The notes beneath the pieces were generated by a model, which was not told where the DNA came from, ran no database searches, and saw only the letters and a program-made list of their open reading frames with translations. The position numbers were made by a program, and so were the translations under genes. From positions 1,612,001 to 1,676,000 of the forward strand of contig NZ_CP010976.1 in NCBI RefSeq assembly GCF_000949425.1: a stretch of 64,000 nucleotides of DNA. The letters run 5' to 3'. Shown one piece after another: positions 36,164-63,200 of this stretch; position 1 is the first letter of the stretch, and each line of letters starts with the position of its first letter. The DNA is from Paenibacillus sp. IHBB 10380 (GTDB lineage Bacteria; Bacillota; Bacilli; Paenibacillales; Paenibacillaceae).

Positions 36164-36390
36164 TTTTATTTTATATCTGAATGAATTTCATAATTCGAAA
36201 CCCTTGCCACATAAGGACTTTTTGGGAATGAAAATATTGTCACCTCCCCAATAGCTACCTTCAGGTTTCAATAAAGCAAAAGATTTGTCATCAAAAAGAT
36301 GTTAAAATCATCGATTTTGGTGGATAATTTCATCGGTTGAATTATGAAATTGGTTCATATTGTAAAATTACGTATTTATTAGGAGTGTTA

Positions 36391-42300: not shown

Positions 42301-45300
42301 CTGTTTAATGTACCGTTTGATTTTAATGAACAGGATATTTGGACAATGTTCCATTCGTTTTGTTTTGATTTCTCGGTTTGGGAAATGTATGGCGCTTTAT
42401 TGTTTGGAGGGAGATTGGTCGTTGTCCCAAAACATATTGCTCAAGATCCATCTCAGTTTTTTCAGCTCCTTGGTGAAGAAAAAGTAACGGTTCTTAACCA
42501 GACTCCTACCTATTTCACCAGCTTATCTAATGCAATTCTATTCCATGAAAAAACGGGACATTGTTTGCGTTACGTTATTTTTGGAGGAGAGGCGCTGGCG
42601 CCAGTTCATTTGAAACCATTTTTTGAGAAGTATCCGGATACCAAATTAATTAATATGTTCGGTATAACGGAGACGACTGTACATGTAACTTTTAAAGAGA
42701 TCACCGAGCACGAAATTGAAAATAATAGTAGCGATATTGGCTCTCCCATTGCAACTTTGTCCGTATATGTATTGGATAACTGCATGAACATGCTGCCCGT
42801 TGGGATTCCTGGTGAGATGTATGTGGGGGGCGAAGGTGTAGCAAGAGGATATCTTAATCGCCCTGATCTGACTCAAGAAAGGTTTGTCCCACACGCGTTC
42901 AAACCTGGTGAGCGGTTGTATAGAACGGGCGACTTAGCCCGTTGGCTGCCTAACGGTTCCCTTGAATACTTGGGCCGTATTGACCATCAAGTTAAAATCA
43001 GAGGTTACCGTATTGAAATTGGCGAGATTGAAGCTCGAATTATACAAAATCCATCGATTAAAGAAACGGTTGTAGTCGAAAGAGCGAATGAGTCAAATGA
43101 AAAATATCTTTGCGCATATATGATTGGGGAGAATTCTCTCGATATTGAGAGCTTGAGAAGCGACCTTAAACATGTATTACCTGATTACATGATACCGGCG
43201 TATTTTGTATTCTTAGAAAAATTCCCAATCACATCTAACGGGAAAATAGATAAGAAGGCTTTGCCGGATCCGACTAATCTGTTTCAATTAGATCAGTACG
43301 CTCCCCCCCGCAACGAGTGGGATCGCAGGTTGGTTGAAATATGGGAAGAGGTTCTCGGTCTACATCGAATCGGGATTAAGGATAGCTTTTTTAACCTTGG
43401 CGGCGACTCCATTAAGGCCATTAGACTCGTTAGTGCGATGAACAATGCGCTTCATTTGTCTCTGCAAATTCGAGATATTTATTCGTTTTCGACAATCGGT
43501 ACTTTAGTTGATAAAATACAAAGTCAACCGGCACCCCAAAAGCAAAATATAGAGTCGTTTATGACCCATCTTAGTGGTCTGAAAACGAGGTATTTGGTCA
43601 ATGGTAAAGAGAATGAAATCGCAAGCACGCCAATTGATTTGTATCCAATGAGCGATATATCAAAAGGAATGATCTTCTATACAATCAATCGGCCGGAAGA
43701 GGCATTTTACCATGATCAATTTGTGTACAGGCTGAAGGATCGTACTTTTGATAGCAAGATATTGGTCAGGTCCCTATATCAAATGATGGAGAAACACTCC
43801 ATCTTGCGCTCAGGATTTTGCCTGGATGAGTTTTCTGAACCGTTGCAATTGGTTTATCCTGAAGTAGAGGTTAAAATCGATGAGCATCTACTAACTGGCA
43901 TTAGCCCAGAAGATCAGGAAAAGTGGATTTCTTCCTATTTGTCTGAAGACCGTAAACAAGCCTTCGAATTCTCAAAGCCTCCTTTATGGAGAATGAGTGT
44001 TGCGCATTTGGATTCTGAGCATGTTTGTTTGCTTTGGCGATTCCATCATTCTATCTTGGATGGATGGAGCGTAGCCTCGTTTATAACAGAACTAATCAAC
44101 CATTATTTTGAATTAAAACAGGACCGTCAAGCTGTACTGCCAAAACTAAAAAGCGACACCAAAGATTTTATTATTGATCAGCACGTCGTTAAAACCAACA
44201 CTGAAATTATTGACTATTGGAAACATGAGCTTATGGGCTATAAACGACTTTCATTGCTTCCTTTTCAAGAGGCTGAATCAGTCAACTTAGAACATACAGT
44301 TATTATTGACACATTGGGAATAGAAGTCATGAATCAAGTGAAAGCTCTATCCAAGTCTTGTCATGTATCAGTGAAAAACTTGTGTTTGACAGCATTCCTT
44401 GTTGCAATCAATATGTTCTCGTATGAAGATGAAGTCGTAGTTGGGGTAGTAGAGAATATTCGACCAGTGTGCGATGACGGGGAAAAAATACTGGGGTGCT
44501 TTTTAAACACAGTTCCGTTTCGCATGATTCTAAAAGACGAAATAAGCTACTTGGATTTAATAAAGCAAGTAAATGCTAAAGTGGCTGATCTCAAATTTAG
44601 CGGACGACTATCGTTAATGGAAGTAAGCAAAGCTGTAGGCGAAACGGCTTCCAGTGAAAATCCTTTCTTTGATGTCATGTTTAACTTTGTAGATTTTCAT
44701 ATTTATAACGAACTAAAGCAAAAGGGTCTGGAATCGATTGTTTCTATTGACATGCATCATCTGTATGAAAAAACGAATACACTTCTAGATTTTACTGTAT
44801 CAACTACAAATGAAGAATGGTTTATTCGCGTTAATACTACTTTTGACGAGAAGGCTATTCGAAAACTACTGCACTATTATAAAGAAATCTTGGATAAAAT
44901 GTGCGTGAGTCCCAAGGTAGCATTGAATAAAGCAGAACTTTTATCTGACAAAGAAAGAAATGATATATTGTACACGTTTAATGCCTCCCAAAAGAAATTT
45001 ACGGAAGGTAGGCCGATACATTCGATTTTTGAAGAGAAAGTTAAGGAAACGCCAAGTCGCGTAGCTTTAATGTTTAAGAATGAAACTCTTACATTCGAAG
45101 AGCTTAATAAAAAGGCAAACCAACTTGCGTATGCTCTGGATCAAAAAGGAATTGGGCGTAACGTTATTGTAGGAATTATGGTCGAACGTTCATTTGAAAT
45201 GGTGATCGGTATTTTAGCTATTTTAAAAGCAGGCGGAACTTATATGCCAATCGATCCAGACTTTCCACAAGATCGGATTTCGTACATGCTGGAGGATAGT

Positions 45301-48114
45301 TGCGCACATTCCGTACTTACCCAAACGAAGTTTAGCGGTAAATTGACTGGGATTACAGAGGACGTTATCCTACTTGATAACGAGGAACTTTATACAGGGG
45401 AAGGAGAAAACTTAGCTGTACCACAAACTATTGGCGACCTAGCGTATGTACTCTATACGTCCGGTTCTACAGGACTTCCCAAGGGAGTCATGATTGAACA
45501 CGGAAGCCTAGTAAACATTTTATTAGATATGGAAGCACGTTATCCGCTTCAACGGGAAGATGCGTATTTATTGAAAACGTCATTTACGTTCGATGTATCC
45601 GCGACTGAAATTTTCGGGTGGATCATAGGCGATGGGAAACTAGTTATTCTTGAACCTAATGCCGAAAAAGAACCGAGCCACTTATTGCTGGCTATTGATC
45701 AATTCAACATAAGCCATATTAATTTTGTCCCATCCATGCTACAAACGTTCTTCTATAACGATGGCGATTGGGAACGTTTAAATAAGCTGAAGTATGTGTT
45801 TGCTGCCGGAGAGGCGCTTCCCGCAGGATTGGCAATGAAGGTATTGAACACATTGCCGCAGGTTTGCCTCGAAAACATATATGGACCGACGGAAGCTTCG
45901 ATTTACAGTACATCTTATTCTGTTACACAATGGAAATCCGATTCAAAACGTATGCCTATCGGAAAACCTTTAACCAATTACTCCGCGTATATTCTTAGCA
46001 GTAAGGGGCAGATTCAGCCCATTCATGTACCGGGGGAACTGCACATAGCCGGTGTAGGAGTGGCTCGTGGTTACCTTAATCGCGATAGTCTTTCCAATGA
46101 AAAATTTATTGAGAATCATATTACACAAGAGGGAAGAATGTTTAAAACGGGAGACCTTGCCAGATGGTTGCCCGATGGCAATATCGAGTATTTGGGAAGG
46201 ATTGATCATCAAGTAAAAGTCAGAGGCTACCGGATCGAAACCATGGAGATTACTGCTCAAATGGTAAAGCATCCTGTTGTTGAAGGAGCAGTGGTTCTAG
46301 CTAAGGAACGCGAAGACGGTACAAATGATCTGGTTTGCTACATTGTTTCGTCAGTTCAGTGGACTTCAGGTGAATTACGTAGTTATCTGAAGCAATTGCT
46401 GCCCGAGTACATGATTCCGTCGTATTTTGTTTCAATTCCAGATATTCCGTTAAATAACAATGGCAAAACCGACGTAGTTGCGTTAAAAAATCTCGATATC
46501 AAAGCGCATTCGGAGGTCTACGTTGTTCCTCAAGATAAACTTCAAGAAGAGATGGCATCGGTTTGGTGCCAAGTTTTGGGGGTATCGGATATTGGTATCC
46601 ACGATAACTTTATAGAATTAGGAGGGGATTCGATTAAAGCAATTCAAATCGTTTCCCGATTTAATGCGTTAGGTCATGCTATCCTGGTAAAAGATATTAT
46701 GGTTCATCGGACGATTGCCGAACTTTGTGAGCATATTCAAACCAATAGATCATGGAAAGTATACGATCAAGGGATCATTCACGGAGATAAGCCAATGCTG
46801 CCTATTGATTGTTGGTTTTTCTGGCTCCCTTGGGCCGAACCTGGTTCCTACACGCAAACGGTTTTACTGGAAAGCCGCGAGCAAGAGTTAGACTTGAATT
46901 TGTTGGAGCAAGCCTTTGACAAGTTAATTACTCATCATGACGGATTGCGGTTAAACTTATCAGAAGACGGAGATCGGCTTTATTATAATAACAACCATTT
47001 ACTTAAGCAGTTTAAAATACAAATCATAACAGTGGATAGTATGCAGGATGCTGTATATGACAATAATTTCGATTTACATGGTGATCTGTTACTATCTGCA
47101 AAATACTATAAAATACCGGATGGAAATCCATTGTTAGAGATCTCGGGTCATCATCTGGTTGTTGACGGAATATCATGGCGCATTTTGTTGGAAGATCTTC
47201 AATACTTATACAAAAAATTATTGGCTGAGGAACCTGAATTGGGTCTGCCAATGAAGACCGCTTCCTTACAAGAATGGGGTTCCTTCCAGAAGGAACAGGC
47301 TCAGTCGGCTGAATTAGAAACGAAAGTGGAGCTTTGGAATTCTATATTGAATACACCATTCCTCATAGAATGCGATTACGAAACGAATGACTGGTCTTAT
47401 CAGCACCAACGCATTAGTAAAGGTTATTTAGAACCGGTTCAGACGACCCAACTCCACAAAGAGGCACTTCGTGTGTTTCATGCAGAGATGGACGATTTGC
47501 TTCTTGCAGCATTAGCTAGAACTTTAAAGGATTGGCAAGGCCACGAGTATATAAAAATTGAAGTAGAAAGCCATGGACGTTATTCCGATAGCATTGACGT
47601 TTCGCGAACCGTCGGTTGGTTGACTTCTTTTCATCCAGTGCTGATCAACGGTCAGCACAGTACAACAAGTGAGTTAATTAAAGTGGTCAAACGACAGTTA
47701 AGAGAGGTGAAAGAAAATAGTAGCGAGTACGGACTTCTAAGCTTCTTGAAAAAAGTTCCGTCGCTAGAATACGAACTCCCCGAAATTCGATTCAATTATC
47801 TCGGAGAGTTTGCTGATGCACAGAACGCCCTATTCGACCTCGAGAGTTTTTCGGCGCAATTGAGTAAGCAGAATACGTTTACGGCAAAACTGGATATTAC
47901 TTGCCAAATTATTCGAGGATCGTTCGAACTCCAGATCGCTTACAGTGATCAAATGTTTCATGAAAATACGATTAACAAAATTAGAGATTTGTATTTGGTT
48001 CATTTGAAAGCGATTACTTCTGATGCGGTAAACCATGGCGAGATGGAGCTTTCTCTTTCCGATTTTGATGCGATTGATCTTGATCATGCAGAGTTTGATT
48101 CTCTTTTTTCTTAA
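36391..48114 (+). CDS. NRPS A: AL-KR-PCP / C-A(Thr)-PCP / C-A-PCP-E
   Basis: 3907 residues from the ATG at 36391 (AGGAG at good spacing). Loading module: acyl-adenylating domain (~90-650; LTSGSTGIPK at 261, C-terminal Lys in GKVQRAEL), ketoreductase (~680-1200; TGGLGGIG from 919, Tyr1080, Asn in YCSAN), PCP (Ser1287). Module 2: C (HHIAFDG, His1475), A (~1780-2310), PCP (Ser2340). Its pocket reads DFWNIGMVHK, the usual Thr code. Module 3: a divergent C (FHHSILDGWS, His2552), A with pocket DVTNFAIIYK (not recognised), PCP (Ser3414) and an epimerisation domain (HHLVVDGISW, His3587; RFNYLG). The end (LSLSDFDAIDLDHAEFDSLF) looks like a docking segment for NRPS B. Likely product: hydroxy-acyl-Thr-D-X held on the enzyme. 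The AL domain resembles that of bacillaene PksJ. Confidence 0.9.
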   Translation: MMKGSKNSNNKKDMASILEEQLCRVEGISKVAVVYKKRKAPLARYHTNDLFIDMNKVITTSIKNTYEHPNESHDESSYGKMSFSSGEALNINPNAPVTLPEMLMKAASLSPDRGIVYVLENGKEIFHSYVSLFEEAQRICKGLQQLNLKSGDPVIFQFKHNENFIPAFWGCVLGGFLPTPLAVPPVYTENNSAVKKLYNTWTLLEKPLVITEMQNQDQLIELTQLWNENKAFVTNIEDLRENDGELVENRFVATDLVLNLLTSGSTGIPKCVQHSHQSLISRIQATIQFNQFHRQDVTLSWMPLDHVGGIVMFHLLSVYLGCSQVVATIQSFIDRPTIWLDWIERFRASISWAPNFAYTLVNEALEQPHPRQWDLSSIRHILNGGEAIVSQNIRKFLQLLEQHKLPADCIFPSYGMSETSSGIVFSCKINRNKEHDGIHYLNKSTIRSKPYTVSADHINAIAFTEVGKPIPGVAIRIVNEHNQLLQEGWVGRLQVKGPTIMSGYYKNPEANAEVFCGDEWFNTGDLGFIIDGKLTITGREKDMIIINGQNHYNYEIEAFVQEVPGVEVTFSAACSIAHPSGTGDQLVIFFVPAAQTLDSQMKIAMRIREHLIRKVGIDPTYILPISKKDFPKTDSGKVQRAELDKKFINGDFDEIIKKIDLHFSNENTIPDWMYRMQWNKKNLLTTAGKRSVSGTTVIFSDSCGLVEEFLSHEWDRNNFIQVQVGQRFEKLNENVFRMNPKLLEDYYCLFSELTNKGVIINEIIHLWNYDEVWMPVTNVDALREAQFLGSYSLLFLAKALSRYAPDHSIRFTVVASRLHGVLKSDEVSFEKSTLVGILKTMEHELTDFSFKLVDVYPSENADYRALAQTVRNEFFNYDDNHIVAFRNGERYVPVLKKINPLHSSRKPLPFVKGGLYLITGGLGGIGKQVAAHLLDNYNAKLLIIGRTPLPERRYWNEIAQQNNKLAERIQHLLELESQAKDGAFVAYHATDLCDANKLKQIINDVEQSENTRFSGVIHLAGILHEERLADASVEKLEEMYEAKVYGTFVLTQLLKGQKEALFVSSSSVTTLSAPMMLGAYCSANTFLETFSSFQRQTLNMDSRCFSWSLWDGIGMSRETAFTGATTSGYLHITNKLGMFSLLSGLKTGHSQIYVGLDGTHPNIQKLSVTKSRNQTVFHAFFKVETGVNEHSVQLELDEAAREYFVQENINSESFHFESDFMDELPLLKDGSINKTQLKAVLSSNNGNVLYAEPRTSTEQVLVGIWSKLLKVGRIGVLDNFFVLGGHSLKAIQLFSIVRQSFGVDISFKELFSQPTIEGLAYHIDQAIRSLSKEIVHHSLIGEIPLSNAQTRQWVLYKLDPLNPAYNNLISLRLKGNLRIAELRKSIQALVDRHEILRTRYVEKEDSVYQIVEEQRVVDMQMVDLISLPFEMVAEKVEHIVVAEAHQLFDLSNGPVIRFKLLQIADDEHVLLISIHHIAFDGWSVEVLLQDLSALYQSFSTDDAPALRKLPVTYSDYAMWQNNWLTETQLESQIQYWKEQLQERNVPIIQLPVDFPRPSIQTYNGKTKEIWLDPELSQALYELSQKHNATLYMTMLSVFVTLLGRYTGQEEFVIGTIAANRNRSEIEGLLGCFVNTLALYIQAEGDLTFVELLDRIKRITIDAYDHQDVPFEKIVDALQIVRDPSHHVLFQVLFLLQNMPDNPVFANDLHAEMKLEHSNTSKFDLSFFVYEYSGRLSIAVEYNTDLFTEETIERMMANYQTLLNSTVKWPDKKLLSLPIISLKEQEQLQTFKYTGKITKMHRTISELFEEQAKKTPEQIAVRFENHSLTYDELNMKVNQLADVLRKRGVQRNQIVGICMERSVDMVVGILAILKAGGAYLPIDPSYPIDRIEFMLEDSESALLITQQGVVSSLSRFSGEYVYVDDPLLFLNGPIDIKSINDPHDLAYVIYTSGTTGRPKGVLIEHHNVIQLLFNVPFDFNEQDIWTMFHSFCFDFSVWEMYGALLFGGRLVVVPKHIAQDPSQFFQLLGEEKVTVLNQTPTYFTSLSNAILFHEKTGHCLRYVIFGGEALAPVHLKPFFEKYPDTKLINMFGITETTVHVTFKEITEHEIENNSSDIGSPIATLSVYVLDNCMNMLPVGIPGEMYVGGEGVARGYLNRPDLTQERFVPHAFKPGERLYRTGDLARWLPNGSLEYLGRIDHQVKIRGYRIEIGEIEARIIQNPSIKETVVVERANESNEKYLCAYMIGENSLDIESLRSDLKHVLPDYMIPAYFVFLEKFPITSNGKIDKKALPDPTNLFQLDQYAPPRNEWDRRLVEIWEEVLGLHRIGIKDSFFNLGGDSIKAIRLVSAMNNALHLSLQIRDIYSFSTIGTLVDKIQSQPAPQKQNIESFMTHLSGLKTRYLVNGKENEIASTPIDLYPMSDISKGMIFYTINRPEEAFYHDQFVYRLKDRTFDSKILVRSLYQMMEKHSILRSGFCLDEFSEPLQLVYPEVEVKIDEHLLTGISPEDQEKWISSYLSEDRKQAFEFSKPPLWRMSVAHLDSEHVCLLWRFHHSILDGWSVASFITELINHYFELKQDRQAVLPKLKSDTKDFIIDQHVVKTNTEIIDYWKHELMGYKRLSLLPFQEAESVNLEHTVIIDTLGIEVMNQVKALSKSCHVSVKNLCLTAFLVAINMFSYEDEVVVGVVENIRPVCDDGEKILGCFLNTVPFRMILKDEISYLDLIKQVNAKVADLKFSGRLSLMEVSKAVGETASSENPFFDVMFNFVDFHIYNELKQKGLESIVSIDMHHLYEKTNTLLDFTVSTTNEEWFIRVNTTFDEKAIRKLLHYYKEILDKMCVSPKVALNKAELLSDKERNDILYTFNASQKKFTEGRPIHSIFEEKVKETPSRVALMFKNETLTFEELNKKANQLAYALDQKGIGRNVIVGIMVERSFEMVIGILAILKAGGTYMPIDPDFPQDRISYMLEDSCAHSVLTQTKFSGKLTGITEDVILLDNEELYTGEGENLAVPQTIGDLAYVLYTSGSTGLPKGVMIEHGSLVNILLDMEARYPLQREDAYLLKTSFTFDVSATEIFGWIIGDGKLVILEPNAEKEPSHLLLAIDQFNISHINFVPSMLQTFFYNDGDWERLNKLKYVFAAGEALPAGLAMKVLNTLPQVCLENIYGPTEASIYSTSYSVTQWKSDSKRMPIGKPLTNYSAYILSSKGQIQPIHVPGELHIAGVGVARGYLNRDSLSNEKFIENHITQEGRMFKTGDLARWLPDGNIEYLGRIDHQVKVRGYRIETMEITAQMVKHPVVEGAVVLAKEREDGTNDLVCYIVSSVQWTSGELRSYLKQLLPEYMIPSYFVSIPDIPLNNNGKTDVVALKNLDIKAHSEVYVVPQDKLQEEMASVWCQVLGVSDIGIHDNFIELGGDSIKAIQIVSRFNALGHAILVKDIMVHRTIAELCEHIQTNRSWKVYDQGIIHGDKPMLPIDCWFFWLPWAEPGSYTQTVLLESREQELDLNLLEQAFDKLITHHDGLRLNLSEDGDRLYYNNNHLLKQFKIQIITVDSMQDAVYDNNFDLHGDLLLSAKYYKIPDGNPLLEISGHHLVVDGISWRILLEDLQYLYKKLLAEEPELGLPMKTASLQEWGSFQKEQAQSAELETKVELWNSILNTPFLIECDYETNDWSYQHQRISKGYLEPVQTTQLHKEALRVFHAEMDDLLLAALARTLKDWQGHEYIKIEVESHGRYSDSIDVSRTVGWLTSFHPVLINGQHSTTSELIKVVKRQLREVKENSSEYGLLSFLKKVPSLEYELPEIRFNYLGEFADAQNALFDLESFSAQLSKQNTFTAKLDITCQIIRGSFELQIAYSDQMFHENTINKIRDLYLVHLKAITSDAVNHGEMELSLSDFDAIDLDHAEFDSLFS

Positions 48115-48235: not shown

Positions 48236-51200
48236 ATGGTTAACTCCAAGATGGATAAGAAAAATGTTGAAGATATAAATTCATTGACTCCAACTCAAAA
48301 AGGAATGCTATTCCATTACCTTCGTAGCCCGGAAGAGCGCTTGTATGGTAATCAGCTCAATTTAAGAATAGCTGGAAATATTCAGCCTCATTTAATTAAA
48401 CAAGCATTTAATCATTTAGTGAGAGAAAATCAAGCTTTGCGAACCGTCTTTCGGTGGAAGAGCATAAAAGAACCAGTTCAGATCATTCTTAAAGAACATG
48501 AGCTTGTATACACGGAGAAAAATTTTATTCATTTTTCGAATAATGAACGTACAGCCCTCTTAGAAGAAGAAATAGAACATGCTCAATCTAATGGATTCGA
48601 TCTCGAAACAGTTCCTTTCCGCGTTACGCTTTGCTTACTGAGTGAAAGCGAATGTGAGGTAATGATTAGTCATCATCATATTTTACTTGACGGATGGAGT
48701 CTTGGGATTTTATTAAGAGATTTTTTTACAATATATCATTCGCTTCATCAAGGCACTGAGGTTATCATTTCAGCTAGAAATAGCATTAAAGATTACGTTA
48801 AACTGCTTCGGTCAAAAGACCAGGCCGACGTGAAGCTGTTTTGGCAGCGTTATTTGGAAGGATATGAGAACGATACGGTTCTTCCTTACGACTTTATTAC
48901 ATTTGACGGAGCTATGAAACATCGCAAGAAGGTATTTTCATTATCAGAGAAGTTTTATAAGGAAATGCTTCATTTTGTGAAGGAACAGAAAGTTACTTTT
49001 GCCGCATTTATTTATAGTGTGTGGGGAATGATTCTACAACGTTACAATAGCGCAGATGATGTGGTGTTCGGTACAACGGTATCCGGACGTTCAGTAAATG
49101 TCAAAGACATCGAAAATACTGTTGGTATGTTCATTAATACGATTCCTTTACGTGTAAAGGCAGATGGAAACCAAACGGTTCGAGACGTTCTGCAGACAGT
49201 CGATCATGCTCTTTCACAACGTGTTGAACATGAGGTTACATCGTTGGTTGATATTAAATCGTATATTCAGTGCAACCCACAAAATCCATTTTTCGATTCC
49301 ATTGTTGTTATTGAAAATTATCCGATTGATGGAATTTGGAACAAAGAGAGTGGGATGCATATTACTTCCCATAGTTCATGGGACAATACAAATTTTCCAT
49401 TGACGTTAGCCGTCTTGCCGAATGACGGATTGAATTTGGAATTTAATTTTAACGAGCGGCAATTTCACGAAGAAACTATTGAAAAAATATCCAATCATTT
49501 TGAACGAGTGGCTCGTGAAATGATTAACAATTCAAGCTTACGTGTTTCTGAATTAGAGTTTCTTTCGGAAGTAGAGAAGACTCAAATTCTTTATTCGTTC
49601 AATGAAACGGAGGCACCGTACCCGAGGGAGAAGACGATTAGCGAGCTGTTCGAGGAGCAGGTGGAGAAAACTCCGGAGCAAGTAGCAGTGGTGTACGAAG
49701 GGCAGGAGTGGACGTACGAAGAGCTGAATGCAAGGTCGAACCAAGTGGCGCGTATGCTGCGTAAGCACGGGGTAGGGGCAGAGACGATCGTAGGCATCAT
49801 GGTGGAACGTTCGCTGGAGATGATGGCAGGAATCTTGGGCATCCTGAAGGCAGGAGGAGCGTATTTACCGATTGACCCGGACTATCCGACAGAGCGTATT
49901 GCGTACATGTTGGAAGATAGCGGGACGAAGGTGTTGCTGACTCAGAAGCGGTTGACAGACCGGGCGGCTTTTGAAGGAAGCATCGTGGTATTGGATGAGG
50001 CGGGCGTATATGCAGAGGAAGAACGTGGGAATATCGCGGGCGAGCATACGGCCGCTAGTTTGGCGTACGTGATTTATACGTCCGGGTCCACCGGTAAGCC
50101 GAAAGGAACCTTGATATCCCATTTCAATATTGCCAGGGTCGTAAAAGACACCAATTATATTGAAATTACAAGCGATGATACCTTGTTGCAACTATCCAAC
50201 TATGTGTTTGATGGATCAACATTTGATATATGGGGTGCGCTACTAAATGGTGCAAAACTTCTGCTAATCAATAGAGATAGCGTATTGGACGCAAGTAAAC
50301 TTTCAACAATCATTCACAAAGAAAACATAACGGTTGTTTTTATGACTACGGCTCTATTCAATGCACTTATTGATGTCAACCCGGAATGCCTCAGTAGGGT
50401 AAGAAAAGTGTTGTTCGGGGGCGAAAAAGTATCGGGAAGTCATGTGGAGAAAGCAATCAAATATTTGGGCGAAACTAAAATCATACACGTATATGGTCCT
50501 ACCGAAAGCACAGTATTTAGCACTTATTATGCGGTGGACGAAGTCTCGTCTTGGACGGACAATATTCCTATCGGTAAGCCTATCAGTAATACGAAGCTGT
50601 ACGTCATGAATAGTAAAAATCAGCTTCAGCCTATCGGAATTGCGGGCGAGCTATGCATAGCCGGAGATGGGTTGGCACGAGGGTACTTGAACCGTCCGGA
50701 GCTGACGAAGGAGAAGTTTGTGGAGAACCCGTTTGTACCTGGAGAGAGGATGTACCGGACGGGGGACTTGGCAAGATGGCTTCCAGATGGGAACTTGGAG
50801 TACTTGGGCCGGATCGATGAGCAGGTGAAGATCCGTGGCTTCCGGATTGAGCCGGACGAGGTGCGTCAGCAGCTCATGAAGCATGAAGCGGTGGAAGACG
50901 CAATCGTCGTAGCCCGGAAGGAAGAAGAAGGCGAAGCGTACTTGTGCGCGTATGTGGTGACGGAAGAGGAGTTGCCGGTGTCGGTATGGCGCAAGCATGT
51001 GGGAGAAAGCTTGCCGGAGTATATGATTCCGTCCTATTTCGTGCGTATGGAGCACTTGCCGCTGACGCCAAACGGGAAGGTGGACCGCAAGGCGCTGCCA
51101 GCACCGGAAGGAGCGGTACACACGGGCGTGGAGTACGTCGCACCGCGAAACGACGTAGAGGCAAAGCTGGCGGACATCTGGTCGGAGGTGCTCGGTTTGG

Positions 51201-54200
51201 AGCGCATAGGGGTCCGGGACAATTTCTTCGAGCTGGGGGGACACTCGCTGAAAGCGATGATACTGGTCTCGCGGATTCACCAGGAGCTGCAGGTGGAGGT
51301 GCCACTGCGCGAAGTGTTCGGGCACGTGACGATCGAAGCGATGGCGGGCTACTTGCAGGAAGCGGAAAAGAAAACGTATACCCCGATAGAACGTGTGGAA
51401 GTGAGAGCATTTTATCCGGTGTCGCCCGCACAAAAACGGATGTATGTGGTCCAGCAGTTGGAAGGAGCAGGAGTCAGCTACAATATGCCGATGGTGCTGA
51501 AGGTGGAAGGAAAGCTGGATCGGGGCCGTCTGGGAGCGGCCTTGCAAACGGTGGTGAACCGGCACGAGGCATTGCGCACGTCCTTTGACATGGCTGACGG
51601 GGAACTGGTGCAGCGAGTACACGCGGAAGTGGAACTGGACGTAGCGTACGAGGAAGCGAGCGTTGCGGAAATGGAAGTGGCCGTAGCGTACGAGGAAGCG
51701 AGCGTTGCGGAAATGGAAGTGGCTGTAGTGTACGAGGAAGCGAGTGTTGCGGAGATCGAGCGTCTGATCGAAACGTTCATCCGTCCGTTTGATCTAAGTC
51801 AAGCACCGTTACTCCGAGCAGGAATCATACAGCTAGGGAAAGAGGAGTATGTGTTGGTGGTGGACATGCACCACATCATCTCCGACGGGGTGTCGATTAA
51901 CGTCTTCATGCAGGAGTTCATGCAGGCGTATGAAGGACGAGAGCTTGGGGAGCGAGGAATCCAGTACAAGGATTATGCGGTATGGCAGCAGGAGCGAATC
52001 CAGAAGGGAGAAATAGAGAAGCAGGAGCAGTACTGGCTGGGAGCGTTCGCAGGAGAAGTGCCCGTGCTGGAACTGCCGACGGATTATCCGCGTCCGGCTG
52101 TACAGCAGTTTGAAGGTGCCAGCGTAGAATGCGCACTGGGAGAGAAGTATAGCCAGAAGCTGGCGAAGCTATCGAGGAAGAGAGGAGCGACGCTGTATAT
52201 GACCCTACTTGCGGCGTATACCGTGCTGCTGTCGAAATATACAGGTCAAGAAGACATCGTGGTGGGAACGCCGATTGCGGGAAGAGGGCACGCCGACCTC
52301 GGTGAAGTAATGGGGATGTTCGTAAATACGTTGGCGCTGAGGAACCGCCCGCAAGGGGAGAAAACGTTCGTATCGTACCTGGAGGACGTGAAAGCGCAGG
52401 TACTGCAGGCGTATGAGAACCAGGAGTATCCGCTGGAGGAGCTGGTGGAGAAGCTGGGGGTACGGAGAGATTTGAGCCGGAATCCGCTGTTTGATACGTT
52501 GTTCGCGCTGCAAAACGTAGAGATGAAGGAGTTCGGTCTGGAAGGACTGAAGGTAAGCCCGTACGGGTACGAAGGAAAGATTGCGAAATTTGATGTAGGC
52601 ATGCAGGTTGTCGAAGGCGAAGGGAAGCTCTACTTCCATGTGGAGTACGGAAGCCGGCTGTTCCGCCCGGAAACGATGGAGAGATGGAGCAGCCACTGGC
52701 TGAGGCTGTTAGAGCAGGTGGCGGACCAGCCGGAGATCAGGCTGTCGGACATCGAGCTGATGACGGAAGAGGAACGGGAGCAGGTGTTGGTGTCGTTCAA
52801 CAAGACGGAGGCACCATACCCGAGGGAGATGACGATTAGCGAGCTGTTCGAGGAGCAGGTAACAAAGACACCGAAGCAAGTCGCGGTAGTGTACGAAGGG
52901 CAGGAGTGGACGTACGAAGAGCTGAATGCCAGATCGAACCAAGTGGCGCGTGTGCTGCGCAAGCACGGGGTAGGGGCCGAGACGATCGTAGGCATCATGG
53001 TGGAACGTTCGCTGGAGATGATGGCCGGCATCTTGGGCATCCTGAAGGCAGGAGGAGCGTATTTGCCGATTGACCCGGACTATCCGTCAGAGCGGATTGC
53101 GTACATGCTGGAGGATAGCGGGACGAAGGTGCTGCTGACGCAGAAGCGGCTGACGGACCGAGTGGTGTTTGACGGAAGCATCGTGGCGTTGGATGAGGCG
53201 GGCGTATATGCAGAGGAAGAGCGCGGGAATATCGCACGCGAGCATACGGCCGCTAGTTTGGCGTACGTGATTTATACGTCAGGGTCCACCGGGAAGCCGA
53301 AAGGGGTACTGGTGGAGCATGCGAGTCTAACCAACATGTTGTCAGCGATGCAGCAACGGTATCCATTACAAGCAACCGGAGCTTATCTATTAAAGACTGC
53401 CTATACGTTTGATGTATCGATCACGGAGTTGTTCGGATGGATACTAGGGAACGGCCAACTGGTGATAGCCAAGCAAGGTGCGGAAAAGGATTGGGCCAAA
53501 CTGGAAGAGGTGATCGATCGTCATTCAATCACGCACATCAACTTCGTTCCCGCGATGTTGCAATTGGTGATGAACGACGGTGTAGAACAAGAGAAGGTTA
53601 GGAAGCTGGAGTACGTGTTCGTGGCAGGAGAAGCGCTCCCTAGCGATTTGGCGAACAAGCTGAACGAATTATGGCCGGACGTCAGCGTGGAAAATATGTA
53701 CGGTCCGACGGAAGCGACCATCTATGCAACGCAATATGCCCTGGGAAGGAAGGAGGGAGTCCACGTCCCTATCGGAAAGCCGCTGCCGAATACACAAGTG
53801 TATGTGCTGAGTGGAGCGAACCGGTTGCAGCCTATTGGAATCGCGGGAGAGCTGTGCATAGCCGGAGACGGGTTGGCACGAGGGTACTTGAACCGACCGG
53901 AGCTGACGGAGGAGAAGTTTGTGGAGAACCCGTTTGTGCCTGGAGAGCGGATGTACCGAACAGGGGACTTGGTCAGATGGTTGCCGGACGGGAACTTGGA
54001 GTACTTGGGCCGGATTGATGAGCAGGTGAAGATCCGTGGCTTCCGGATTGAGCTGGGAGAGGTACGCGAGCAGCTCGTGAAGCATGAAGCGGTGGAAGAC
54101 GCGATCGTCGTAGCCCGGAAGGGAGAAGAAGGCGAAGCGTACTTGTGCGCGTACGTGGTGACGGAAGCGGAGCTGCCGGTGTCGACATGGCGCAAGCATA

Positions 54201-57200
54201 TGGGAGAAAGCTTGCCGGAATATATGATTCCGTCGTACTTCGTGCGTATGGAGCAGCTGCCGCTGACGCCAAACGGGAAGGTGGACCGCAAGGCGCTGCC
54301 AGCACCGGAAGGAACAGTACACACGGGTATGGAGTACGTCGCGCCACGAAACGACGTGGAGGCAAAGCTGGCGGACATCTGGTCGGAAGTGCTCGGTCTG
54401 GAGCGCATAGGGGTCCGGGACAACTTCTTCGAGCTGGGGGGACACTCGCTGAAAGCGATGATGCTGGTCTCGCGGATTCACCAGGAGCTGCAGGTGGAGA
54501 TGCCGCTGCGCGAAGTGTTCGGGAACGCGACGATCGAAGCGATGGCAGGCTACTTACAAGAAGCGGAAAAGACAACGTATACTCCGATAGAGAGGGTGGA
54601 AGCGAGAGCGTTTTATCCGGTGTCGCCCGCACAAAAACGGGTATATGTGGTCCAGCAGTTGGAAGGAGCAGGAGTCAGCTATAATATGCCAACGGTGCTG
54701 AAGCTGGAAGGAAAGCTGGACCGGGGACGTCTGGGTGAGGCCTTGCAAACGGTGGTGAACCGGAACGAGGCATTGCGCACGTCCTTTGACATGGCTGACG
54801 GGGGACTGGTGCAGCGGGTACACGCGGAAGTAGAACTGGCCGTAGCGTATGAAGAAACGAGCGTTGAGGAAATCGAGCGTCTGATCGAAACGTTCATCCG
54901 TCCGTTTGATTTGAGTCAAGCACCGTTACTCCGGGCAGGAATCATACAGCTAGGGAAAGAAGAGCATGTACTGGTGGTGGACATGCACCATATCATTTCC
55001 GACGGGGGATCGATCAACCTCTTCATGCAGGAGTTCATGCAGGCGTATGAAGGAAGAGAGCTTGGGAAGCGAGGAATCCAGTACAAAGATTATGCGGTAT
55101 GGCAGCAGGAGCGAATCCGCAAGGGAGACATCGAGAAGCAGGAGCAGTACTGGCTGGAATCATTCGCAGGAGAAGTGCCTGTGCTGGAGTTGCCAACGGA
55201 TTATCCTCGTCTGGGGCTGCAGCAGTTTGAAGGTGCCAGCGTAGGATGCGAGCTGGGAGAGGAGTACAGCCAGAAGCTGGCGAAGCTGTCGCTTGAGAGA
55301 GGAGCGACGCTGTATATGACCCTATTGGCGGCGTATACCGTGCTGCTGTCGAAATATACAGGGCAAGAAGACATCGTGGTGGGAACGCCGATTGCGGGAA
55401 GAGGGCACGCCGACCTCGGTGAAGTGATGGGGATGTTCGTAAATACGTTGGCGCTGAGGAATCGCCCGCAAGGGGAGAAAACGTTCGTATCGTACCTGGA
55501 GGACGTGAAAACGCAGGTGCTGCAGGCGTATGAGAACCAGGAGTATCCGCTGGAGGAGTTGGTGGAGAAGCTGGGTGTACGGAGAGATTTGAGCCGGAAT
55601 CCGCTGTTTGATACGTTGTTCGCGCTGCAAAATGTGGAGATGAAGGAGTTCGCTCTGGAAGGGCTGAAGGTAAGTCCGTACGGTTATGAAGGAAAGATTG
55701 CGAAATTTGATGTGAGCGTGCAGGCCGTCGAAGGGGAAGGAAAGCTCTACTTCCATGTGGAGTACGGAAGCCGGTTGTTCCGCCAAGAAACGATGGAGAG
55801 ATGGAGCAACCATTGGCTGAGGTTGTTAGAGCAGGTATCGGATCAGCCGGAGATTAAGCTGTCTGACATTGAACTGCTAACAGAAGAGGAACGGGAGCAG
55901 GTGTTGGTGTCGTTCAACGAAACGGAGGCGCCGTACCCAAGGGAGAAGACGATTAGCGAACTGTTCGAGGAACAGGCGGAGAAAACTCCTGGGCAAGTGG
56001 CAGTGGTGTACGAAGGGCAGGAATGGACGTACGAAGAGCTGAATGCCAGATCGAACCAAGTGGCGCGTGTGCTGCGCAAGCACGGGGTAGGGGCCGAGAC
56101 GATCGTGGGCATCATGGTGGAACGTTCGCTGGAGATGATGGCAGGGATCTTGGGCATCCTGAAGGCAGGAGGAGCGTATTTGCCGATTGACCCGGACTAT
56201 CCGGCAGAGCGGATTGCGTACATGTTGGAGGATAGCGGGACGAAGGTGCTGCTGACGCAGAAGCGGCTGACGGATCGAGTGGCGTTTGACGGAAGCATCG
56301 TGGCGTTGGATGAGGCGGGCGTATATGCAGAGGAATATCGCGGGAATATCGCGGGCGATCATACGGCTGCTAGTTTGGCGTACGTGATTTATACGTCGGG
56401 GTCCACCGGGAAGCCGAAAGGGGTATTGGTGGAGCAACGGAACGTCGTTCGTTTGGTGAAAAACACGAATTACGTGGAGTTTGGCGAGGGAGATCGTATC
56501 CTCCAAACGGGAGCGCTGGTGTTCGATGCGTCTACGTTTGAAATTTGGGGTGCGCTGCTCAACGGTTTGCGGCTGTACTTGAGCGCCGAGCACCGTATCT
56601 TGGATCCTCTGCATCTGGGTCAGAGCATTGAGCAATATGGAATCACGACGATGTGGCTGACCGCGTCGTTGTTTAATCAAGTGGTGCAAGAGCGGATCGA
56701 AACGTTTAGCGGTCTGAAGACGTTGATTGTAGGAGGAGAAGCATTATCTGTCGAGCATGTGAACCGGGTAAGAGAAGCGCACGGGGAACTGAAGATCGTG
56801 AACGGATATGGACCGACAGAAAATACAACTTTCTCGGCTTCCTATGTGATCGATGGAGAGCAAGAGGGAACGATTCCGATCGGCAAAGCGATTAACCATT
56901 CTAAGGTCTATGTGCTGGGCGGAGTAAACCGGTTGCAGCCTATCGGAGTGGCAGGAGAGCTGTGCGTGGCCGGAGACGGGTTGGCACGAGGATACTTGAA
57001 CCGTCCGGAGCTGACGAAGGAGAAGTTTGTGGAGAACCCGTTTGTGCCTGGAGAGCGGATGTACCGAACGGGGGACTTGGCAAGATGGCTGCCGGACGGG
57101 AACCTGGAGTACTTGGGTCGGATCGATGAGCAGGTGAAGATCCGCGGCTTCCGAATTGAACCAGACGAGGTGCGCCAGCAGCTCATGAAGCATGAAGCAG

Positions 57201-60200
57201 TGAAAGACGCGGTCGTCGTGGCCCGGAAGGAAGAAGAAGGCCAAGCGTACTTGTGCGCGTACGTGGTAACGGAAGAGGAACTGCCGGTGTCGGCATGGCG
57301 CAAGCACATGGGAGAAAGCTTGCCGGAGTATATGATTCCGTCTTACTTCGTACGTGTGGAGCAATTGCCGCTGACGCCAAACGGGAAGGTGGACCGCAAG
57401 GCGCTACCAGCACCGGAAGGGGCGGTACACACGGGCTTGGAGTACGTCGCGCCGCGAAACGACATGGAGGCGAAGCTGGCGAACGTCTGGTCGGAGGTGC
57501 TCGGTTTAGAGCGCATAGGGGTCCGGGACAACTTCTTTGAGTTGGGAGGAGACTCGATCAAGGCGATTCAAATCAGCGCTCGTTTGCATAAACAACAGTT
57601 GAAGCTGGAGATCGCGAACTTGTTCCTGCATCCGACAATTGAAGACGTGAGTCTGTATGTACGGCAGGTGGAAATGAGCATCGATCAAGGTCAAGTGAAG
57701 GGGCAGGTAGAGCTCACCCCGATTCAGCGATGGTTTTTCGAACAAGACTTCCAAGCGAAGCATCATTGGAACCAGTCGGTGATGGTATATAGGCAAGAGG
57801 GCTTCAACAGCGAGGCACTGAGGGAGGTCTTGCAGGAACTGGTGGCCCACCATGATGCGCTGCGAATGAGGTATGAGGGTGAAGGAGAAAGCGTCCTTCA
57901 AGTTAACGAAGGGATCGAAGGGAACAGAATCGAGCTAAGCGTAGTAGAGATCGTCGGGGATGAAGAGGAAGTGGCAAGGCGGATTGAGGCGGAATCGGAG
58001 CTCCTTCAAAGCAGCCTGAACCTAGAGTCGGGACCGCTGATGAGAGCTGGATTATTCAAGACCGGCAAAGGGGACCACTTGCTGCTGGCGGTCCATCATC
58101 TGGTGATCGACGGAGTCTCATGGAGAATCCTGTTCGAAGATTTGGCGATCGGGTATGAACAGAAGCTGGCGAATGAGGAAGTGAACTTGCCGGAGAAGAC
58201 GAACTCGTACCAACAGTGGTCAAAGGAACTGAAAGAGTATGCAAACAGCAGGAAGTTGCTAAAGGAGAAGCCGTATTGGAAAGCGGTGGAAGAGGCGGAG
58301 ATTGCAAGACTGCCGAAGGACATGGAGGCTGAGGCACAAGGGAATACATGGGGAGAGAGCCGGATCGAAATCGTGGAGTTCACGGAAGAAGAGACGGAGA
58401 AGCTGCTGAGAAACGTGCACCAAGCGTACCATACGGAGATGAATGACATCCTGCTGACAGGACTGACACTGGCCGTGGAAGAGTGGACGGGAGAAGAACG
58501 AGTAGGGCTGACGCTGGAAGGACACGGAAGGGAAGAGGTCATCAAGGGAGTGAACGTGAGCCGGACGGTAGGTTGGTTTACGAGCATGTACCCGGTGGTG
58601 TTGGAAATCAAGGGAAGGGAAGAACTCGGCAATCAAATCAAGCAGGCGAAAGAAACGCTGAGAAGGATACCGAATAAGGGGATTGGGTACGGGATTCTGA
58701 AATACGTGACGGAGAAGGAAAGAACCCAGGACCTGGAATTCAAACAAAGACCGGAGATTAGCTTCAACTACTTGGGGCAGTTTGACGCAGAGATGGGAAG
58801 CGGTGTATTTGAAGGCTCTGGGATGCCGATGGGAAGCGCATTTCATCGAGATTCAGAACGAACATACAAGCTGGACGTGAGCGGCGCCATTGTGGGAGGC
58901 AAGCTGCAGATGAGCATCCAGTATCCGGGAAGAGAGTACCGGGAAGAGACGATCAAGGGATTGCTGGAGAGCTATCGAGATCACCTGTGCCGGATCATCG
59001 AGCATTGTGTGCAAAAAGAGGATGCTGAGAGAACTCCTAGCGATTTTAGTGCGAAAGCATTAAATCTGGAGAGTCTGGAAGTAATTTTGTCCAAGCTGGA
59101 GAAAATACGAGACAGGAACGAGGTAGAAGACGTATATACGCTGTCCTCAATGCAAGAAGGAATGCTGTTTCATGCCCTAGCGGAAAGAGGCAGAAGCGAT
59201 TATTTTGTCCAATTGAGCTTATCGGTCAAGGGTCGGCTTGAAATAGAAGCTTTGACTACGAGTTTCCAGCGGATGGTTGAGAAATATTCGATCTTAAGAA
59301 CGAACTTTTTGTATGAAAAAATAGACCAGCCCTACCAAGTCGTATGGAAAACGAGAAAGGCGAATGTGTATTACGAGGACATCAGGGAGCTTGCAGAGGA
59401 AGAGAAGGAAGCCCGTTTGCAACAGTATGAGAACGGGGAGAAGGAAAAGGGATTCGATCTTAGCAAGGATCTGCTGATGAAGCTGTCGGTGATCCAGACG
59501 GGGGAGGAAACGTACAAAGTCATCTGGAGCTACCATCACATCATCATGGATGGCTGGTGCACGGGGATCGTTCTGGGAGATTTGTTCAAGTATTACGTTC
59601 AATTGAAAAGCGGTCAGCGTGTGGAGTTGGAAAAATCGTATCCGTACAGCGATTACATCCAGTGGCTGGAGGAGCAGGATCAAGAAGAGGCGCTGGAGTA
59701 CTGGGAGAACTACTTGAGAGGGTACGAGCAACAGGCAAGCGTACCGGCGCAGCGGAAAGGCGAAGGAAACGGAGAGTATCGGCAAGAGGAAGTGATCGTC
59801 ACTGTAGGGGAGAAGGAGAGCGGTCAATTGAACAGGCTCGCCCAAAAATACCAAGTGACGATCAACACGATGGTCCAGGCGATCTGGGGGACTTTGCTGC
59901 AAAGGTACAACCAAGCGAGCGACGTGGTGTTCGGTTCGGTGGTCTCGGGAAGACCTGCGGAAATTGAAGGCGTGGAGAAGATGGTGGGGTTATTCGTGAA
60001 CACGATTCCCATTCGAGTGTACGCAGAGCCGACGGAGCGATTTGCAGACCTGGTGCAAGGGATGCAGCACAGAGCGCTAGCCTCGGAGAAATACGACTAC
60101 GTATCGTTAGCGGATGTGCAGGCGAGGAGCCAGGTGAAGCAAGGGTTGCTGGATCACATCATGACGTTCCAAAACTTCCCTATAGGTGAAGAGCTGAAGA

Positions 60201-63200
60201 ATCAAACGGACGGGGAAGGGTTAGGCTTTGAGATAGAGGGAGTCGAAGCGTTCGAGCAGACGAACTATGACTTTAACATCACGGTCATTCCGGGGAAACA
60301 GCTGACGTTTAAAATGAATTACAATGCAAAGGCGCACGATCAGGAGTTTATCCGGAGAATTGGGCAGCATGTGGAGAGAATTATCCAGCAGGTAGTGAAG
60401 CATCCGGAGCTGCGGATTCAAGAGCTTGATATCGTAACAGAAGAGGAACGGGAGCAGGTATTGGTGTCGTTCAACAAGACGGAGGCGCCATACCCGAGGG
60501 AGAAGACGATTAGCGAGCTGTTCGAGGAACAGGTGGAGAAGACTCCAGGGCAAGTGGCAGTGGTGTACGAAGGGCAGGAGTGGACGTACGAAGAGCTGAA
60601 TGCCAGATCGAACCAAGTGGCACGTGTGCTGCGCAAGCACGGAGTAGGGGCCGAGACGATCGTGGGCATCCTGGTGGAACGCTCGCTGGAGATGATGGCC
60701 GGTATCTTGGGTATCCTGAAGGCAGGAGGGGCGTATTTGCCGATTGACCCGAGCTATCCGGTGGAGCGGATCGCGTACATGCTGGAGGATAGCGGGACGA
60801 AAGTGCTGCTGACTCAGCGTCATTTGACGGAAAGGTCTAGTATTGAGCAGAAAGTTTTATTATTGGATGAATGCGTTGATACAGAAGAGAGAAATAACCT
60901 GGATACGATCATTGGCCCACACAACCTAGCTTATATTATGTACACTTCGGGTTCTACCGGAAAGCCGAAAGGCGTTCTCATTGAGCATCAAAGCGTCGTG
61001 AATTTATGCATCTGGTTTGGCCATACCTATAACTTGGATGAGCATCAGCGTATTCTGCAAAACACGAGCATCTCTTTCGATGTTTCAGTAGAAGAAATGT
61101 TTGCTACCCTTCTGCATGGGGGGAGTCTCTATCTTACATCGGACAAGGAATCGTATCATCGGGAAAAATTCCGGGCTTTTATCCGTGAAAACAACATTCA
61201 CATCGTACAGTTGGTTCCCTCGACTATACAGGAATTTATCCTGAATGGGGAAAAATTGGAGAGTATACGAGTCTTGATTTGCGGTGGGGAAGCGTTACCA
61301 CCATCGATAAAACAAGCGGTTGTGGAACTGGGTTATAATTTATACAATTGCTACGGTCCGACAGAAACAACGGTTGACGCCATTACATCCCGTTGCGCGG
61401 ACACGAAGTCTGTTGTTATTGGTAGTCCGATTGCTAATACACGGGTATATATTACAAATTCCTATGGACAGCTCCAACCGATTGGCGTATCCGGAGAGCT
61501 CTGCATAGCTGGGGATGGGGTGGCAAGAGGATATTTTAATCGGCCTGAATTAACTGCCGAAAAATTTGTCGCCAGTTCCTTTATACCTGGAGAAAGAATG
61601 TATAAAACAGGGGATTTGGCCAAATGGCTCCCGGATGGTCATATCGAATACGTCGGACGAATCGATCAACAGGTGAAAATCCGCGGTTACCGCATCGAAA
61701 TCGGTGAAATCGAGGACGTTTTGCTAACCCATCAAGCTGTGAAAGATGCGGTAGTAACTGCTCGTCAAGGTCAGCATGGGGATACTTACTTGTGTGCTTA
61801 TGTGGTGGCAGTGTCGGAGCTAGATATACAGAAACTAAGAGCGCATCTACGGGATCAACTACCTAGTTACATGGTACCATCCTTTTTTATCCAGATCCCT
61901 AGTGTACCGACGACGGAGAACGGAAAAGTTGATAAAATGCGGTTGCCTCATCCTAATGAGGCAAGCTTGGTAAGCAACGAGTACGTCGCTCCAGCCAATG
62001 CGATTGAGGATGGGTTATGTGATATTTGGAAAAATCTTCTCGGTTTGGATCAGGTGAGCGTGACCGAATCATTTACTGATATAGGTGGACATTCATTGCA
62101 TATGATGAGAATGCTCTCTTATATTCATCAGGAGTTCCAAGTAGACATTTCCATTAGGGACCTTTTTGTTTACAACACGATCCGTACTTTGGCTCAGTAT
62201 ATCTCCTCTGCCGAAGTGCGCCTGTATGAAGCTATACCGATAGTGGAATCGCGTGACCTTTACCCTGTTTCGTCGGCGCAGAAAAGGATATATCTTCTGG
62301 AGAAACTGAGTGGCGCGAATTACAATATGTCCGGAGTGTTCCTAGTTGAAGGAGCACTGGATGTCAAATGCCTTGAAAACGCATTGAAGCATTTAATCCG
62401 GCGGCATGATATTCTTCGCACAGCGTTTGTTTGGGGCGATGGCGAACCTATGCAACGCATTGAGGATGAGGTGTCGTTTGAGCTCCATTATCAAGAGGTA
62501 ACGGAAGTACAAATACCGGAATTGATGGCTAGATTCGCCCGGCCGTTCGATCTGATGGACCCTCCATTGTTACGAGTCGGTTTGCTAAAACTGGGGGAAC
62601 AGCGGTATGCGTTGCTGTTTGATATGCATCATATTGTTTTTGACGGGATATCCATGTCAATATTTATTAATGAGCTTGGGAAGCTTTACGCAGGCGAGGA
62701 ACTTGAGCGTTCTTGGATTCAGTACAAAGATTACGCGGTATGGCAGCAAGCAGGGCTTCGCGGGGATTCGTTAAAACGGCAGGAAGCCTACTGGCTTAAT
62801 GTTTTTAAGGATGTTCCGCCTGTTCTGATGCTCCCGACAGATAAGCCAAGGTTTGCATCCCAGCGGTTTGAGGGGAGCTCTTTGATCTTTAAGGCTGACA
62901 AAGAGATCGCGGAACCGTTGTATCGGCTGGCGGCAGAAACTGAAACGACTTTGTATATGGTTTTACTGGCAGCATATAATGTGTTGTTGTCGAAATATAC
63001 GGGTCAAGACGATATTGTTGTCGGATCGGCTTTTGCAGGAAGATCCCATGCAGAGCTAGAAGGACTGATCGGCATGTTCGTTAACACTGTTGCGCTGCGG
63101 AATCGTCCAGAAGGCCGCAAAGGGTTTCGATTGTTTTTAGGCGAAGTTAAGGAATGTGTACTCATGGCTTACGAAAATCAAGATTATCCTTTCGAGGAAT

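Follow-up and report, generated by a model that had tools for sequence, protein, structure and literature searches.

A shared scaffold, recurring specificity cores and base composition that follows copy number in a nonribosomal peptide synthetase cluster of Paenibacillus sp. IHBB 10380

The window analysed here, 64,000 nucleotides (nt) of the Paenibacillus sp. IHBB 10380 genome (contig NZ_CP010976.1, positions 1,612,001 to 1,676,000, forward strand), ends within a large nonribosomal peptide synthetase (NRPS) cluster, which was read up to contig position 1744894. The cluster is 97 kb long (36337 to 132894 in window numbering) and contains seven genes (nA-nG) with 26 adenylation (A) domains, one in the starter A-KR-T of nA (KR, ketoreductase; T, thiolation) and 25 more. 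Its modules are mosaics. The scaffold is homogeneous even at synonymous sites, cores and flanks conflict in their relationships, one module (nC1) has three parents and a 3.4-kb copy lies in a second NRPS cluster. Module amplification and ectopic homologous recombination between the copies very probably explain the cluster, and the conversion would be GC-biased. The alternative that survives best, possible but doubtful, is that the scaffold was a GC-rich foreign module, imported once and amplified, into which native low-GC cores and blocks recombined; the GC ladder described below would then reflect ancestry.

In the proposed mechanism, NRPS modules would have been amplified largely as triplets with a 10.7-kb period, two plain modules being followed by one that ends in an epimerisation (E) domain. 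Ectopic homologous recombination between the copies would hold the array together, in tracts that would begin and end in conserved scaffold and often flank the A-domain pocket. Exchange of such tracts may have spread one scaffold through 21 modules while five specificity cores (A3 to A6) changed place, and GC-biased conversion would raise GC content at third codon positions (GC3) in step with copy number.

One scaffold and five core classes

One scaffold is shared by 21 of the 25 post-starter A domains; nA1, nA2, nB4 and nG3 are not of this scaffold and are left out of the 21-module statistics. The cores of these 21 fall into five classes, of 6, 6, 4, 3 and 2 members (97.1% identity within class). 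Across the 170 module pairs with different cores, mean nucleotide identity is 93.7% upstream of the core, 46.9% in the core and 91.2% downstream. In 15-codon bins, the mean identity of such pairs is 0.85-0.97 between the A-domain start and motif A3; most of the core gives 0.37-0.54, LQPIG (A6) 0.79 and the sequence beyond, up to the T domain, 0.87-0.95. Exact repeats of at least 60 bp cover 65% of the bases from nB to nG. The longest exact repeat in the array is 651 bp, and the longest repeats reach 5.9 kb.

An earlier note on part of nB had described two 'near-identical' repeats (50630-53305 and 53831-56422) with exchangeable A-domain cores between them. The repetition is real, although the wording is a little strong, as the two stretches are 92.25% identical over 2592 aligned bases with 84 gap columns. 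The 84-base gap fits two extra copies of a 42-nt tandem unit at 51623-51753; the condensation (C) domain copy of nB3 that aligns to this tandem region of nB2 is 84 bases shorter. The cores do differ in sequence, as was claimed, and in base composition (GC3 0.42-0.61, against 0.68-0.76 in the scaffold). The break points also lie where the note placed them (A3 at 50075, 53273 and 56390; LQPIG at 50624, 53825 and 56933). The pattern of constant scaffold and variable core was understated, as it extends over the whole cluster.

Features are given below in window numbering unless otherwise stated.

36337..48114, +: nA, starter gene (A0-KR-T, C-A-T, C-A-T-E; domains by Pfam, E by motif); single-copy, GC3 0.38, internal control
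48236..64000 in the window, on to 80575, +: nB, NRPS gene of 10779 amino acids (aa) with nine A domains
48236..49561, +: first C domain of nB, single-copy; GC3 0.30-0.37 across its first four 100-codon windows
49611..50107, +: upstream A scaffold of module nB1, through A3 inclusive
50108..50623, +: nB1 core, class I
50624..53305, +: constant stretch 1 (A6-A10, T, C, then A1-A3 of nB2), 92.3% identical to constant stretch 2
51623..51753, +: 42-nt tandem unit, 3.1 copies, in the C domain of module nB2
53306..53824, +: nB2 core, class X; the closest core is that of nC1
53825..56422, +: constant stretch 2
56423..56932, +: nB3 core, class V
56933..60840, +: further scaffold (A6-A10, T, E with its motif at 58094, D-type C, A1-A2 of nB4)
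60841..63523, +: single-copy A-T-C block from nB4 into nB5, ends approximate; GC3 0.41-0.53 within an array of 0.6-0.8
63524..64000, +: start of the nB5 scaffold
109214..109807 (G000:C1:1721214-1721807): indel-interrupted C domain between nD5 and nE1
G000:C1:2563815-2568602 (L019:1816-6603), -: second NRPS cluster with the 3.4-kb copy, fused to a different C-terminal part

Judged by eye at the anchor positions, the codes of the five core classes would be Leu-like, of unclear specificity (X), Thr-like, Val-like and Ile-like; the class I core of nB1 is presumably Ile-like and the class V core of nB3 Val-like.

The degree of scaffold sharing was compared with that in other NRPS proteins, namely the 119 others among the best 120 of 2107 matches to nG. 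Seven lacked enough usable A domains and were dropped; each of the 112 kept had three or more that were usable and differed in their cores. Mean flank identity between their different-core modules has a median of 0.58, a 95th percentile of 0.72 and a maximum of 0.79. The corresponding values are 0.87 for nB, 0.91 for nC and 0.93 for nD; nG, whose last module is off the scaffold, lies within the range of the other proteins at 0.78. Scaffold sharing in the cluster is known in kind; its degree is extreme within this protein sample.

Recombination between modules

Upstream and downstream flank identities are correlated at -0.04 in different-core pairs and at 0.39 in the 40 same-core pairs. The pairwise homoplasy index (PHI) was computed for the scaffold on both sides of the core (75 and 105 sites), and in neither case did any of 1000 permutations reach so low a value. 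Module painting gave 4.7 switches per module. The core tree needs 4 class changes, which is the minimum, against 8 on the upstream and 7 on the downstream flank tree; these short trees were built by a quick method. On the downstream tree, nC1 (class X) joins nB1 (I) with 99% support in the Shimodaira-Hasegawa-like approximate likelihood ratio test (SH-aLRT), and nB5 (V) joins nB8 (I) with 98%. Core and flank have different closest relatives, as in A-core recombination of NRPSs, and recombination tracts run between copies, as in concerted evolution. The disagreement of core and flank trees that the earlier note proposed to look for is thus present among the cluster's own modules, and its suggestion of recombination or gene conversion between modules is supported by tree conflict, PHI and the mosaic of nC1. 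Taken together, PHI, painting, tree conflict and synonymous sites show that the modules recombine homologously, with break points that are not fixed.

Three sources can be told apart in module nC1. Its upstream part resembles nD4 (97.8%); its core resembles nB2 (99.6%), sharing with it an exact repeat of 451 bp whose start lies within A3; and its downstream part resembles nB1 (99.6%), sharing an exact repeat of 446 bp. Its switches of closest relative are located at A3 and QPIG. A copy of nC1, x19, is found in another NRPS cluster 870 kb away (95.6% identity over an alignment of 3394); the 3.4-kb copy in that locus (L019) spans the last part of nB and the opening module of nC. In the C-domain part, nC1 and x19 differ at 17 of 1499 sites in five 300-nt bins, and at 14 of 292 in the sixth bin, which adjoins the A domain. 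Differences number 19 of 519 in the linker and upstream scaffold, 16 of 522 in the core and 57 of 573 downstream. Since most of these differences have both states in other modules (15/19 upstream, 11/16 in the core and 54/57 downstream), rewriting from the paralog pool seems to have continued after the copy arose. The same holds for 11 of the 17 differences in the C-domain bins, so that the both-states measure alone cannot separate the regions; the density of differences does.

The unit exchanged is approximately A3 to A6, with the C domain and the interface of the A subdomain (Asub) with T kept, and the downstream flank often accompanies the core. Other exchange units are also present, namely the A-T-C block of nB4 and the whole module x19. 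The nB4 block (60841-63523), single-copy and of lower GC inside the homogenised array, is an exchange unit unlike the A3-A6 cores. Association between core class and flank is 0.56 beside the core on the upstream side, followed by 0.47, 0.39, 0.13, 0.29, 0.20, 0.23, 0.10 and 0.16 (489 nt). On the downstream side it is 0.22-0.46 to about 420 nt, then 0.10, 0.21 and -0.06. The upstream profile looks like an uneven decay of linkage and the downstream profile like a plateau. As the association reaches beyond the core, cores often travel with variable lengths of flank, and the profile fits homologous tracts of variable length rather than a fixed cassette. A triplet-position signal was found in the C and T/E parts (0.34-0.83) and none in the A domain; the class signal lies in the core and has shoulders on its flanks. 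The earlier proposal that exchange swaps the core and keeps the scaffold describes one possible direction; overwriting of scaffold around resident cores yields the same mosaic in one genome.

Tandem duplication and divergence, with purifying selection keeping the scaffold and positive selection altering the core, is an improbable origin of this pattern. Whole-module duplication is visible in the 5.9-kb repeats and in the flank trees, where the classes cluster beyond shuffled labels: the 8 and 7 changes compare with shuffled means of 13.0 and 12.9 (0 of 200 as low on either tree). This clustering tells against recombination of cores as the whole account, and it indicates that modules have also travelled whole and that much of the history is whole-module duplication. 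Selection on the protein does not produce the identities at four-fold degenerate sites: the 170 different-core pairs agree at 84.9% of these sites upstream of the core and 80.3% downstream of it, against 42.0% within it. Purifying selection as the cause of the constant scaffold was rejected on these values. The PHI tests, the painting and the tree conflicts likewise speak against duplication with divergence.

An assembly artefact, in which repeats were mis-joined or wrongly polished, is slightly less probable still. Exact repeats of up to 651 bp could favour such errors, and in the C domain that separates nD5 from nE1 nine single-base indels interrupt about 600 bp, while three sister domains still match it at 92-95%; this has the look of a long-read consensus left unpolished, not of decay. 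The assembly nevertheless consists of two contigs, open frames of 10779, 3657, 5776 and 3531 codons run across the array, same-class cores in different scaffolds would require precise mis-joins at motif boundaries, and other assemblies show the GC step as well.

Exchange of dedicated or site-specific cassettes at A3 and QPIG, the cassette option of the earlier note with break points taken as fixed, is the least credible account: identity drops sharply at both motifs and nC1 switches there, but fixed break points, the mark of such exchange, were not found, class association extends variable distances, reaching at least 400 nt into the flanks, many module switches lie elsewhere in the scaffold, and the nB4 block and x19 are other exchange units. 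A cassette mechanism was rejected on the association profile and the painting; a recombinase or signal sequence was not searched for.

An orthologous cluster, in which an exchange could be followed from before to after, was found neither in 99 other genomes of the genus nor in one protein search. Relatives of nA with 33-46% identity occur in 10 of these 99 genomes at E 1e-100. At E 1e-60, scaffold DNA matched one of 100 genus genomes, its own, and none of the 99 others. The protein search with nG gave, among the 120 listed of 2107 matches, itself and 119 others at no more than 49% identity, and nG stands alone in its protein cluster. A core query against genome contigs reached 53% at best (best 80 of 214 matches), viral and metagenome collections being outside the search.

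Silent-site GC and copy number

Ten ordinary genes of the window have a mean GC3 of 0.34. The value is 0.38 in nA, 0.64-0.68 in nB to nF and 0.58 in nG. In overlapping 150-nt windows over the cluster, GC3 by copy number is as follows.

Single copy: 0.383 (315 windows)
2 copies: 0.446 (28)
3-4 copies: 0.543 (92)
5-7 copies: 0.643 (392)
8-12 copies: 0.614 (17)
13-17 copies: 0.687 (345)
At least 18 copies: 0.732 (370)

The Spearman correlation of copy number and GC3 is 0.80; it is 0.71 without nA and 0.80 when thinned to every third window. GC content at four-fold degenerate sites (GC4) is 0.39-0.51 in the single-copy cores (nA1, nA2, nB4 and nG3), 0.44 in the two-copy class and 0.57-0.67 in the classes with 3-6 copies. 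At other NRPS loci of the genome, 20 A domains (22 less two of L019) have GC3 of 0.41 upstream, 0.42 in the core and 0.39 downstream, and this flat profile indicates that domain type is not the cause of the GC step.

The step recurs elsewhere. A first set comprised 13 cluster sets from 12 relatives rich in NRPS hits and four clusters of the genome itself, 17 in all, and a replication set comprised 17 clusters from 16 genomes, obtained in a class-wide search. The relatives' clusters were hand-picked among the matches listed. Clusters were counted as informative if they had repeats of at least 800 bp at 85% or more; L018, L019, L022 and L023, all loci of the genome itself, stood outside this comparison. 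GC4 was higher in the repeats in 11/11 informative clusters of the first set (11 of 17; mean difference 0.138; 16/16 genes) and in 4/4 of the replication set (4 of 17; mean difference 0.077; 6/7 genes). It is therefore higher inside long repeats in 15 of 15 informative clusters, in one cluster of the replication set by 0.004 only and in another of that set at p 0.077. Four of these (G026, G048b, G055 and G053) are orthologous, so that the 15 clusters represent fewer independent cases. A window-based test agrees for most clusters. When the four-fold GC step was taken by part (A-up, A-core, A-down and rest) in 11 clusters, its sign was kept in all filled cells but two, namely A-up of G048a (2 repeated windows) and A-core of one own-genome cluster. 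Domain type as cause of the step is ruled out by this comparison together with the other-locus A domains. As expected of GC-biased gene conversion, the step is explained neither by domain type nor by amino-acid use, and silent-site GC is higher in the converting sequence of the same genome, the difference being weak or absent in G199 and G111.

The four orthologous genes (G026, G048, G055 and G053) have two tandem 2.9-kb modules each. The tandem copies are 95.4-98.8% identical within species, against 86-95% between species, and group by species with bootstrap values of 100, 97, 100 and 83. Paralogs are more alike than orthologs, as in concerted evolution, although one branch has 83% only. GC4 is 0.61-0.63 in the single-copy sequence upstream, 0.80-0.85 in the repeats and 0.55-0.71 in the spacer (31-34 sites each). 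At third positions polarised by parsimony, the ratio of weak-to-strong (W-to-S) to strong-to-weak (S-to-W) rates is 2.35 in the repeats where the copies agree (47/672; 67/2252) and 1.35 upstream (92/1772; 89/2312; z 2.3 against the repeats), with implied equilibria of 0.70 and 0.57 respectively. If the repeats were no more than a GC-rich relic, the two ratios should be equal. Their standing GC exceeds the implied 0.70, so that a relic or a bias of parsimony may account for some of the excess. A search for a single-copy ortholog of the G026 tandem module matched 5 of 100 genomes, none a clean single copy, with one partial match in G030.

Two distant relatives (G203:C1:4944000-4983999, loci L163 and L164; G236:C1:2842000-2881999, loci L165 and L166) have NRPS genes of about 12200 codons. 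In the 40 kb analysed from each, no repeat reaches 800 bp at 85%, and GC4 is 0.34-0.36.

Import of a GC-rich foreign scaffold, doubtful as it is, would agree with L019, which shares the 3.4-kb stretch with the cluster and is GC-rich in all six open reading frames examined, and with the drift of array singletons to A/T. It does not sit easily with GC3 climbing over seven copy classes, one small class (17 windows) being out of order, or with the same sign in 14 other informative clusters (one by the 0.004 above), background GC3 in the first set ranging from 0.34 to 0.67 (one 20-kb stretch per genome). Unrepeated spacers below the GC-rich repeats and a W-to-S bias stronger in repeats than in flanks, both in the four-species gene, also argue against it.

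Several observations weigh against conversion with a GC bias. G199 shows no GC difference (0.699/0.695), and in G111 the difference is weak (p 0.077). The window-based test gives a mixed result for G083 (0.555 in single copy, 0.536 at 2-3 copies, 0.599 at four or more), a reversed sign for G046, where 3 windows are repeated, and no significance for one own-genome cluster. When each copy is counted, the four-species repeats give W-to-S/S-to-W ratios of no more than 2.00 and 1.82. GC3 is 0.51-0.64 in the six L019 frames, and its 2844-codon NRPS gene has no internal repeat, so that GC-rich foreign NRPS DNA may reach this genome. The equilibrium GC content (GC*) of the array is 0.40 from singletons and 0.46 and 0.50 from commoner variants (small counts of 9/50, 11/49 and 8/30 changes), with a trend in the expected direction but below the standing value of 0.79 at those sites; a GC-rich relic also predicts low GC*, and array allele frequencies do not separate the two. 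Causation may also be reversed, GC-rich segments recombining more.

GC-biased gene conversion, which would raise GC3 with copy number, is the likeliest reading of the composition. Our judgement tilts slightly towards the broader view that repeated NRPS modules in Bacilli undergo it frequently, and that here it was strong enough to lift GC3 from the 0.34-0.38 of the genome to above 0.7 within single genes, following copy number.

Product, known systems and significance

The epimerisation motifs of nB are spaced 10716 and 10749 bases apart, and across the cluster such a motif occurs on every third module, except in nF, where it is on the second. The last gene ends in a reductase-type domain (PF07993). 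With a KR-containing module at the head of the line, a reductase at its end and E, by motif, on almost every third module, the product is predicted to be a linear peptide of about 26 residues, mostly hydrophobic as judged by eye, with D residues at nearly every third place. A literature search found no known product to match it. The nearest named proteins, among the matches listed, include many from Paenibacillus and Brevibacillus. An Rfam scan of the whole window gave no matches.

A-core recombination in NRPSs was reportedly also the subject of a 2007 paper (PMC2174460). Exchange of A cores, with hotspots flanking the pocket, has been described (Baunach et al., 2021, PMC8097286; PMC7486941, 2020), and there is a Paenibacillus example (PMC13036774). 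As in the former two papers, the pocket is exchanged here with hotspots just before and after it, the C domain and Asub stay mostly in place, and partners come from within one cluster or from another cluster of the genome. Unlike the single events described there, mostly between orthologous clusters, 21 modules of the present cluster share one scaffold and five recurring cores, and exchange would be read from paralogs in one assembly line. Concerted evolution of NRPS and polyketide synthase (PKS) domains, with syringopeptin and mycolactone as extreme repetitive cases, is also known (PMC4256081, 2014). Domains within the cluster are likewise homogenised by internal recombination; unlike in that account, homogenised and divergent parts meet here inside one domain and base composition follows copy number.

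In the wollamide/desotamide NRPS, the pocket and P-loop were similarly replaced from another locus with the C-A interface kept (PMC9205934, 2022). That was one event with biochemical proof, whereas the many events proposed here are known from sequence alone. The flavodoxin-like subdomain (FSD) with the pocket, which is exchanged here, was swapped by engineering in the enduracidin NRPS (PMC8616955, 2021). Those swaps succeed at more than 55% subdomain identity, whereas different cores in this cluster average 28-34% aa identity per gene.

GC-biased gene conversion in bacteria has been argued for (Lassalle et al., 2015, PMC4450053) and is disputed, being stated as not observed (Ely, 2021, PMC8153448). 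As in the former study, recombining sequence is GC-richer than non-recombining sequence of the same genome. That study compares genes with and without evidence of recombination; here the contrast lies within single genes and scales with copy number. No paper linking repeat copy number to silent-site GC in NRPSs was found by title in the open-access literature. A-core exchange and NRPS concerted evolution are already published, and this cluster is an extreme case of them; the composition that rises with copy number is the unexpected part.

For NRPS engineering, five pockets apparently fitted into one scaffold many times provide a natural set of interchangeable cores, and the cluster shows break points that are tolerated. 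In repeated modules, converted and unconverted stretches belong to a single gene and share its expression and function, so that GC bias can be put to a direct test. If the proposed reading is true, such genes would be an intragenomic assay of a process disputed in bacteria, and GC3 along a megasynthase would be a readable record of which segments are being exchanged.

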